NCBI RefSeq assembly: GCF_021390495.1
Contig: NZ_JAJEJP010000002.1
Location: 124,001-188,000 of the forward strand
Source of the DNA: Paraburkholderia sp. ZP32-5
GTDB taxonomy: Bacteria; Pseudomonadota; Gammaproteobacteria; Burkholderiales; Burkholderiaceae
Direction of reading: 5' to 3'
DNA length: 64,000 bases
Shown: in pieces, positions 17,628-19,494 of the stretch
How positions within the stretch are numbered: the first letter of the stretch is position 1
How the letters are laid out: each line of letters begins with the position of its first letter
Program-made: the position numbers and the translations under genes
The notes under the pieces: generated by a model
What the model was told of the DNA's origin: nothing
The model's database searches: none
The model's input: only the letters and a program-made list of their open reading frames with translations

Positions 17628-18068
17628 GCAATGCCCATTCCATGACCTCAGCAACAGTTGGATTACATCGGAGGCAACCAGGCGATGCTTTCTCTCGTGG
17701 TCACCAGCAAGATAACTTCGAATCCGGCCTGTCCATAGTACGAAGACGGGCAATTTCAGGCGGTGAGAATTCGCTGATGATAGTTGATCGCCGCGTATCA
17801 CGCTTGCCTGGAAAGTGCATAACGGGAGGCATTACAGGAAGCTGTCGAGACTATTGTTCTGCGTTTCCGTGACCTTTTCATTTCTGCCGGAATAGATCGT
17901 CACTCCGTGCGTTGGGAATAACAACATAGTACGAAGTCATGGCGAGAAACAATAAAACTTGAATAGCAGAATGATGCGGTGATAGCGCGGTTACTTCGCA
18001 ATCGTTTGCTTCTTGCAGGTGGAGTAACGTGATTGACGTACCGGACCAAATTCGTTTACCTTCGATAC
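17628..18068. other. Intergenic region between divergent genes
   Basis: Holds the divergent promoters of the HD-GYP sensor and the attenuated ThrRS gene. It is noticeably more AT-rich around 17900-18010 than its flanks. A possible -35 TTGACG at 18033-18038 lies in front of the leader peptide, but no good -10 is visible. The short open frames here have no family resemblance. Confidence 0.45.
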
Positions 18069-18155
18069 ATGCGCTTCCACTCGATCTCACTCTTCGCCGT
18101 CACCACCACGACGACCACCTTCACAGGCGGGTCGTCTGGAGGTTGCGCGCGCTAG
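18069..18155 (+). CDS. Threonine-rich leader peptide of an attenuator
   Basis: A 28-codon frame from ATG 18069 to TAG 18153-18155. Codons 12-17 are six consecutive threonines (ACC ACC ACG ACG ACC ACC) and codon 19 is another Thr. It sits 120 bases before a threonyl-tRNA synthetase gene and just before a strong hairpin, the arrangement of amino-acid leader peptides such as thrL. Scarcity of charged tRNA-Thr would stall ribosomes on this run. A ribosome site for this ATG is weak, so its start is inferred from the codon content and RNA structure; possibly leaderless translation. Confidence 0.78.
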   Translation: MRFHSISLFAVTTTTTTFTGGSSGGCAR

Positions 18156-18201
18156 AGCTGGAGAGCAGCACAAGCAGTGGCAAATCCCCAAAGGCCCCGC
18201 C
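18110..18201 (+). promoter_or_regulatory. Attenuator pairing elements (protector and antiterminator)
   Basis: Segment 1, GACGACC at 18110-18116 inside the Thr codons, is complementary to GGTCGTC at 18130-18136 (segment 2). The overlapping segment GGCGGG at 18126-18131 is complementary to CCCGCC at 18196-18201, which is the 5' arm of the terminator hairpin. A ribosome stalled on the Thr codons would block 1:2 pairing and favour 2:3, the antiterminator. This is the classic three-state attenuator geometry, read by eye without folding energies. Confidence 0.65.
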
Positions 18202-18222
18202 GGAAACGGACGGGGCCTTTGG
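18188..18222 (+). terminator. Attenuator terminator hairpin ahead of the ThrRS gene
   Basis: CCAAAGGCCCCG (18188-18199) pairs perfectly with CGGGGCCTTTGG (18211-18222), with CC/GG extending inward and GGAAAC as the loop, plus one bulged A. The stem is very GC-rich in its upper half and ends in AAA/TTT. Only a short T-rich stretch (CGTTT) follows, so termination strength is uncertain, but the position between leader stop and gene start fits an attenuator. Confidence 0.75.
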
Positions 18223-18282
18223 CGTTTCAGGACCTTCCGTTTGCGGCATTCATCGTGGTATCCAAACCAACGGAGCATGACC

Positions 18283-19494
18283 GTGAACGACATCGATCAT
18301 CGTGTACTCGGCAATAAGCTGGATCTCTTTCATCAGCAGGAGGAAGGCCCCGGCATGGTCTTCTGGCATCCGCGCGGCTTTACGCTTTACCGCGTGCTCG
18401 AAGATTATGTGCGCGCACGCATGCGTCGCGCGGGCTTTCGCGAGATACGCACGCCGCAGTTGCTCGCGCGCTCGCTATGGGAAAAGAGCGGTCATTGGGA
18501 GAAGTTCGGCGGCGCGATGTATTCGCTGGCCGATGCCGAAGAGGAAGGCCGCGCGCTTTGTCTGAAGCCGATGAGTTGCCCTTGCCATGTGCAGGTGTTC
18601 AACCAGCGCGTGCGCTCGTATCGCGAGTTGCCGGTGCGTTATAGCGAGTTCGGCGCGTGCCATCGGGATGAACCGTCGGGGTCGCTCGAAGGTTTGAAGC
18701 GCACGCGCGCGTTCGTGCAGGACGACGCGCATGTGTTTTGCGCGCCCGCGCATATCGAGGCGGAAGTGGGCCGCTTCTGCGCGTTGCTGCGTTCGATGTA
18801 CGCGGACCTCGGCTTTCCCGACTTCAAGGTTGCGCTGGCGACGCGCCCGCCATTGCGCGCGGGCGACGACGCAACGTGGGATCGCGCGGAACAGGCGCTG
18901 GCTGATGCCGCGCATGCGGCCGGTCTTGCATTCGACGTACTCGCCGGAGAAGGCGCTTTTTACGGGCCGAAACTCGAGTTTCATCTGACGGATAGCCGCG
19001 CGCGAAGCTGGCAATGCGGCACGATCCAACTCGATTTCGTACTGCCCGAGCGGCTCGATGCGCAGTACGTCAACGAGCGCAACGAGCGCGAGCGGCCGGT
19101 GATGATCCATCATGCGGTGCTCGGCAGCATCGAGCGTTTCATCGCGATGCTGCTCGAACATCATCAGGGATGGTTGCCGATGTGGCTCGCGCCTGAGCAG
19201 GTGGTGGTCGCGACGATCAGCGGCGCGAATCTCGCTTATGCGGACGAACTCGTTCGGGCTCTCGACGATGCGGGTGTTCGCGCGGTGCTCGATAGCCGGC
19301 CGGAGCGGCTGGAGAAGAAGATCGTCGATGCGCGCGACAAGCAGGTGCCGATTCTCGTCGCTGTTGGGCCGCGTGATCAACGTGATCGCACGCTTAGCGT
19401 TCGCGCGCGTGATGGACGGCAATCGGTGTTTGCGTTGGCGGAGGGTATCGAGTACTTGACGCGAATTGCGCTGCCGCCGGGACGATTGAAATGA
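18283..19494 (+). CDS. Short threonyl-tRNA synthetase lacking TGS and editing domains
   Basis: About 403 residues against ~640 for bacterial ThrRS. It starts directly at the class II catalytic core and ends with the anticodon-binding domain (QVVVATISGANLAYADELV onward). The zinc-site residues are all present: Cys in KPMSCPCHVQVF, His in DDAHVFC and His in HHAVLGSIERF. Motif 2 is seen as YSEFGACHRDEPSGSLEGLKR. The N-terminal ~240 residues (TGS and Ser-editing domains) are absent. GTG 18283 lies seven bases after GGAG; ATG 18277 is too close to it. It charges tRNA-Thr or activates threonine for another pathway. Preceded by a threonine attenuator. Confidence 0.88.
   Translation: MNDIDHRVLGNKLDLFHQQEEGPGMVFWHPRGFTLYRVLEDYVRARMRRAGFREIRTPQLLARSLWEKSGHWEKFGGAMYSLADAEEEGRALCLKPMSCPCHVQVFNQRVRSYRELPVRYSEFGACHRDEPSGSLEGLKRTRAFVQDDAHVFCAPAHIEAEVGRFCALLRSMYADLGFPDFKVALATRPPLRAGDDATWDRAEQALADAAHAAGLAFDVLAGEGAFYGPKLEFHLTDSRARSWQCGTIQLDFVLPERLDAQYVNERNERERPVMIHHAVLGSIERFIAMLLEHHQGWLPMWLAPEQVVVATISGANLAYADELVRALDDAGVRAVLDSRPERLEKKIVDARDKQVPILVAVGPRDQRDRTLSVRARDGRQSVFALAEGIEYLTRIALPPGRLK

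Follow-up and report, generated by a model that had tools for sequence, protein, structure and literature searches.

A predicted threonine attenuator upstream of a second, editing-less threonyl-tRNA synthetase gene in Paraburkholderia

A spare threonyl-tRNA synthetase (ThrRS) gene in Paraburkholderia sp. ZP32-5, thrS2, is very probably controlled by a ribosome-mediated transcription attenuator. The attenuator is well supported by computational evidence, namely the leader open reading frame (ORF), its Thr codons, the alternative stems, their conservation and the tie to a clade of short ThrRSs, and from this evidence we infer ribosome stalling, termination and the direction of the response. The window analysed here is a stretch of 64,000 nucleotides (positions 124,001 to 188,000 of contig NZ_JAJEJP010000002.1) from a genome of 9.1 Mb that is assembled into four contigs; unless stated otherwise, coordinates are those of the window and features lie on its forward (+) strand. 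A leader ORF is followed by a GC-rich hairpin at 18188-18222 and by thrS2 from a GTG at 18283. Three points go beyond the preliminary description of this DNA: a leader mRNA that is probably leaderless, a predicted hairpin in which many relatives bury the start of thrS2, and the occurrence of the architecture at other genes.

The leader ORF, identified by an ORF scan and by comparison of relatives, has 28 codons (18069-18155; coordinates re-checked) and encodes the peptide MRFHSISLFAVTTTTTTFTGGSSGGCAR. It has the marks of the short leader, rich in the regulatory amino acid, that defines a ribosome-mediated attenuator: six consecutive Thr codons (18102-18119), as first described, form the only run of at least six across the six frames of the window. 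These codons contain segment 1 (GACGACC, 18110-18116), which is indeed complementary to GGTCGTC at 18130-18136, and the second complementarity that had been pointed out, between GGCGGG (18126-18131) and CCCGCC (18196-18201), was also found. Segment 2 (18126-18136), in which GGCGGG and GGTCGTC overlap, would pair with segment 1 or, when the ribosome stalls, with segment 3, the CCCGCC in the 5' arm of the predicted terminator hairpin (18188-18222); segment 4 (18207-18217) occupies its loop and 3' arm. The hairpin is GC-rich as claimed, but its length was understated, since the fold has 15 pairs, interrupted by a single bulge, instead of 12 bp. It is strong, but the imperfect U tract behind it (UUUGGCGUUUC, 18218-18228) is weak in the window, and the hairpin is absent from the terminator list of a consensus scan; among thrS2 loci, the 10 nt past the 3' arm hold 3 to 9 U. 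An Rfam search of the window at gathering score returned no family, the Thr leader and the T-box included, and no tRNA genes were found within the window.

Directly downstream lies the ThrRS gene that the preliminary description had placed there, thrS2 (18283-19494), which encodes a 403-aa ThrRS without TGS and editing domains. Its start is probably the GTG at 18283, because a Shine-Dalgarno (SD) sequence, ACGGAG (18270-18275, segment 6), precedes it and relatives start there. The product, ThrRS2, scores 444 bits against the family model TIGR00418 (cutoff 384) and carries the tRNA-synt_2b and HGTP_anticodon domains only, and its alignment with ThrRS of the E. coli type sets in where the catalytic domain begins; the N-terminal TGS and editing domains of a full-length editing ThrRS are missing, so that the earlier label 'editing-less' is right by domain content. 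A second ThrRS with a longer frame is encoded elsewhere in the same genome and is 53% identical over the common part. With E. coli numbering placed from motifs and in part presumed, the positions of C334, H385, H511 and R363 are conserved in 64 of 64 short ThrRSs, the first three being what we take to be the zinc ligands. Beside zinc-ligand positions, residue 98 of ThrRS2 is Ser in 64/64 short and Asn in 58/59 full-length enzymes, and residue 277 is His in 64/64 short and Arg in 59/59 full-length enzymes. Leu489 is kept in 62/64 short ThrRSs, and Met is common at this position among full-length ones (34/59). Obafluorin resistance of the ObaO type, for which the accessible part of PMC11252418 gives serine at the Gly463 position as the criterion, was considered and rejected, the short ThrRSs keeping Gly in 64/64.

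A short ThrRS was found in 55 of 144 genomes of the genus, among the matches listed. It stands beside a second ThrRS match in 54 of them and alone in one (86% complete), and the remaining genomes have one ThrRS match each, with frames of at least 645 residues among the matches listed. The leader is present in 53 of the 55; of the other two, one copy (L130) lacks its 5' end, its match starting at residue 68 with different sequence upstream, and the other (L133) begins at a contig edge. The 53 loci were joined by 12 further ones, being 20 short-ThrRS loci from named genomes minus eight repeated upstream sequences; 11 are alphaproteobacterial (Bradyrhizobium, Inquilinus, Acidocella and two further MAGs) and one is from Burkholderia. 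In the resulting comparison set of 65 loci, the Thr run proved to be kept as the attenuator reading demands, 64 satisfying the Thr-run rule and the exception, L017, having TSTAT; when 46 leaders of 28 codons are aligned, every one of the six positions encodes Thr in 45 or 46. A chance run in a GC-rich intergenic region, which the GC-rich codons ACC and ACG might favour, is practically negligible as an explanation, given this conservation and the fact that 60 first-order Markov simulations yielded no Thr-codon run of six or more. Against the attenuator reading stands the leader of one ThrRS2 relative (L183), which has three scattered Thr plus Ile and Val.

Of 23 short-ThrRS loci, 21 carry the leader according to a covariance model, R1, with at least 72 bits each; 16 of the 21 had been training sequences and five are independent, and the two missed are again L130 and L133. 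By contrast, R1 had no match near the gene at 61 other loci (59 full-length ThrRSs and two partial), the best stray match reaching 23 bits, with almost no upstream sequence available at L056 and about 240 nt at L053. A tree of 128 ThrRS sequences sets its 69 short members apart behind a single branch with support of 100; it was made by a quick method that gave a long-branch warning, L022 and L158 included. Acidocella groups with Burkholderiaceae in this tree, which suggests transfer of the short ThrRS between classes, and the ThrRS of genome G432 groups with Bradyrhizobium. The HD-GYP and TonB receptor genes that neighbour thrS2 in the window were seen among L001-L137 at the window's own locus, with a 35% HD-GYP match at the full-length-ThrRS locus L061, in a comparison confined to flanks of 1.5-5 kb at most loci. 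Judged by its surroundings, the attenuator-thrS2 module looks free-standing.

The comparison of relatives also brought out a putative promoter, which a consensus promoter scan had not listed. It consists of a -35 element, TTGACG (18033-18038), whose spacing to the leader ATG is kept among relatives, and a putative -10 element, TACCTT (18057-18062), for which relatives have TACTGT or TATCGT; from spacing only, the transcript is predicted to start at about 18069. TTGAC was not found upstream of the leader in two of the 65 loci; where it occurs, its distance to the leader ATG is 35-37 nt in 62 of 63 loci, whereas that from the ATG to segment 2 varies from 45 to 69 nt, and the leader ATG is the first ATG past the promoter in 59 of 63. 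Since the promoter-to-ATG spacing is so constant, the transcript is expected to start at or beside the leader ATG, making the leader mRNA probably leaderless. A start downstream of 18120, which the preliminary description had named as fatal to the attenuator, is thus not what promoter spacing predicts. The S. meliloti trpL attenuator RNA starts at its leader ATG, according to the accessible part of PMC7298713, and resembles in this respect the RNA predicted for thrS2; it differs in serving Trp and trpE(G). The same part of that source describes rnTrpL/peTrpL, a leaderless attenuator RNA with a role in trans, and by analogy the thrS2 hairpin might end a short trans-acting leader RNA while thrS2 has its own promoter. 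We consider this highly improbable: the leader occurs at short-ThrRS loci and at none of the 61 others, its mutually exclusive stems are conserved, and the consensus scan, a weak test, found no promoter between hairpin and gene.

The attenuator reading fares well in folding. For the 201-nt region the folding z-score is -4.42, a value equalled by 0 of 200 shuffles. Nascent-RNA folds were compared between a stalled state, modelled with the Thr codons hidden by the ribosome, and a released state with the leader free; the mean probability of the antiterminator (2:3) across the 65 loci was 0.93 stalled and 0.07 released, in keeping with the original proposal that stalling lets 2:3 pairing win. Stalled exceeded released in 65/65 loci, with a margin of almost nil in L010 and L022, and the antiterminator exceeded 0.3 in the released folds of five loci (L010, 0.99; L022, 0.87; L098, 0.76; L134, 0.57; L137, 0.37). 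When the segment 2 region was shuffled, the stalled 2:3 value dropped, with p of 0.03 or less in 64/65.

Both alternate stems have support in the alignments, a point that the preliminary description had made a test of its reading. Across 45 sequences the terminator has 20 double-changed cells against a shuffled mean of 5.9, and 0 of 500 shuffles reach 20, cells here counting sequences and not events; judged by how many terminator pairs carry a double change, there is no excess over shuffles (3 vs 2.2; 175/500). The antiterminator is near-invariant in the same number of sequences, with 95.9% of cells paired and one compensated double change, a single event that 8 of 500 shuffles match; its last pair is missing in 7/45. 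The double change is that of L025, where GGUGGG with CCCACC keeps the 2:3 pairing and loses one terminator pair. The codons GGC GGG TCG are unchanged even at third positions in 46 of 46 aligned 28-codon leaders, which points to a constraint at the RNA level. Set against codon shuffles, the leader hairpin is the more stable (p<0.05) in 29/45 sequences and the weaker in L176; pairing of segment 2, put to a simpler comparison with such shuffles, gave no enrichment (0.76 vs 0.75). The count of leader lengths that are multiples of three is partly circular, because leader ATGs were chosen so as to share the frame of segment 2. Antiterminator and terminator stems that exclude each other according to where the leader ribosome stands, a further hallmark of such attenuators, are thereby indicated at the level of folding and conservation.

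In the attenuation model, RNA polymerase would start at or beside the leader AUG with a ribosome close behind. When Thr-tRNA is plentiful, the ribosome would pass the six Thr codons and depart, whereupon 1:2 would pair, 3:4 would form the terminator and thrS2 would stay mostly untranscribed. When tRNA-Thr is uncharged, the ribosome would stall on segment 1, 2:3 would pair, no terminator would form and thrS2 would be expressed. Failing ThrRS activity, through an inhibitor, metal loss or overload, is a more likely trigger than plain Thr starvation, because an extra synthetase makes no threonine. Most simply, then, ThrRS2 induced by uncharged tRNA-Thr would back up a failing ThrRS1.

Further complementarity lies between the terminator and the gene. 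Segment 5 (18235-18243) has two complementary partners, the ribosome-binding region of thrS2 and segment 4, and in the window the 5:6 duplex exceeds shuffles (p 0.017) while 4:5 does not (p 0.153). Among relatives the thrS2 SD tends to be buried, with a mean unpaired probability of 0.06 against 0.29 for shuffles and p<0.05 in 33/65; sequestration is not significant in the window (p 0.43), any of the six Bradyrhizobium loci and L025, among others. In many relatives, the hairpin predicted around the start of thrS2 may add a layer of translational control. It is conceivable, though somewhat unlikely, that control acts at two levels, such that 5:6 pairs when 3:4 forms, 4:5 pairs with the freed segment 4 when 2:3 forms, and a stall thus also opens the start site, leaky read-through remaining untranslated unless Thr-tRNA is short. 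Consistent with this, 4:5 duplexes beat shuffles (p<0.05) in 24/84 sequences (12/27 of those hand-picked as diverse) and 5:6 duplexes in 29/84, with the control 3:5 duplexes doing so in 0/84, and Bradyrhizobium L016 has a 4:5 duplex of -26 kcal/mol; yet 4:5 and 5:6 use common bases, so that one complementarity partly implies the other, and 5:6 reaches p<0.05 in none of the eight asd and hydrolase loci described below. The window's own 4:5 and SD values, and the loci without significant sequestration, also speak against such a relay.

A general thermodynamic switch of start-site accessibility was rejected, as equilibrium folds gave no overall change: SD accessibility was 0.19 released and 0.21 stalled, with a rise in 6 loci and a fall in 5 of the 65, and start-codon accessibility on stalling went up in 15 and down in 10 of 65. 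This, too, counts against the relay. That the start site is poorly accessible on average in both folded states would fit a hairpin acting independently of the leader, as a constitutive brake or as an operator for ThrRS feedback. E. coli thrS is subject to translational autoregulation, which lends this reading some plausibility; E. coli ThrRS feedback, however, relies on N-terminal domains that the short ThrRS lacks, and we hold the reading to be doubtful.

The attenuator reading gains from genes other than thrS2. Model searches were run against three evenly drawn sets of genomes: 398 from the phylum at E 1e-4, 337 from the class to which G432 belongs at E 1e-14, and 369 from the window's own class at E 1e-7. 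The phylum search matched 33 genomes and gave 29 loci beyond the window's own, of which 25 (L146-L170) were read, L171-L174 and matches without a locus being left out. Seven of the 25 have a short ThrRS behind the leader. Four (L152, L153, L154 and L161) show the same architecture with a Thr-rich leader before an isochorismatase-family hydrolase, the family being called by Pfam on three loci and by likeness on the fourth. At six loci (L155, L156, L157, L159, L160 and L162), a common leader ORF ending like MTRFGWAVGGVAR precedes a small protein; these leaders have no obvious amino-acid run, and L156, the sole locus tested, encodes a DUF1127 protein. At L163 and L167 a leader-like ORF and hairpin stand before a GNAT acetyltransferase or methyltransferase gene, and a leader of this kind was not seen in the remaining six of the 25. 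In the class of G432, 11 genomes matched and ten loci were gained, three of them at asd and seven at a short ThrRS (leaders read at all but L178, and L183, with its few Thr, among them). The search of the own class matched three genomes, namely the window's, one with an asd locus (L186) and one with a hairpin after a coding gene (L185).

Lys and Thr abound in the leaders of the four asd loci, which share the hairpin: KRKTTKKT in L181, KRMTKKT in L182, TKATTTAKTTT in L184 and NKRTMKTKT in L186. The product of aspartate-semialdehyde dehydrogenase, the enzyme encoded by asd, feeds both Lys and Thr synthesis, and such leaders fit the gene because it serves both pathways. That leader codons appear to track gene function is the best independent argument for codons being read as the signal. 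A broader proposal, unlikely as it stands, would make these loci a proteobacterial class of leaderless two-level attenuators in which a codon stall drives an odd-even relay of six segments, the polymerase passes and the start site is then freed, an architecture with exchangeable codons serving the spare ThrRS, asd and the hydrolase. Separately, the source genome holds at C2:293416-293566 (L139 1501-1651, minus strand) a His-rich leader ORF, MQALTSLPIATHHHAHTRAGLPLGTCIR, with TTGACG upstream by eye and a GC hairpin with a T tract; the gene that follows belongs to the YunG family (PF24585), and the locus is a candidate His attenuator.

Attenuators of this kind are known. The closest precedent is trpRS1 of Streptomyces coelicolor, an auxiliary, antibiotic-resistant TrpRS gene that Vecchione and Sello reportedly found in 2010 to be under ribosome-mediated attenuation. 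As in thrS2, a second synthetase for one amino acid lies behind a leader-peptide attenuator; unlike trpRS1, thrS2 involves Thr and ThrRS, belongs to Proteobacteria and encodes a short editing-less enzyme without the Gly463 change of ObaO. The enterobacterial thr operon leader (Rfam Thr_leader) combines a Thr-codon leader peptide with a terminator and an antiterminator, as the thrS2 leader does, but controls biosynthesis, and the window has no Rfam match at gathering score. Bacillus thrZ encodes a second ThrRS that is induced through a T-box by uncharged tRNA-Thr, the signal proposed here for thrS2; it differs in that its RNA reads the tRNA directly, with no leader peptide, and no T-box match occurs in the window. 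Classical attenuators upstream of synthetase genes are also known or predicted for gammaproteobacterial pheST and for the trpS and leuS genes of Streptomyces, which resemble the present one in placement and differ in amino acid, gene and lineage, as far as the accessible part of PMC1262725 goes; 'thrS' and 'threonyl' are absent from its text. Anabaena thrS2/T2, in the portion of PMC4787780 available, is a duplicated, editing-impaired ThrRS kept for stress, alike in these respects and different in retaining a degenerate editing domain and in being under Zur control. Within the literature searched, most subscription papers lying outside its reach, no report of a leader attenuator was recognised for thrS, the hydrolase leaders brought up one Salmonella RNA-seq study, and nothing was found for asd. 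What is new by this comparison is the pairing of Thr codons with ThrRS, the probably leaderless leader mRNA, the start-site hairpin and the range.

The architecture common to asd and the hydrolase points to a family of attenuators, one that has no Rfam match in this window. At thrS2, attenuator and gene together would be a complete unit that senses uncharged tRNA-Thr and responds by making a second synthetase, doing in a Gram-negative bacterium what the T-box does in Bacillus. With such a module one can ask under which conditions cells require an editing-less ThrRS, and whether enzymes of this type stand in when a ThrRS is disabled by natural inhibitors or by metal loss.
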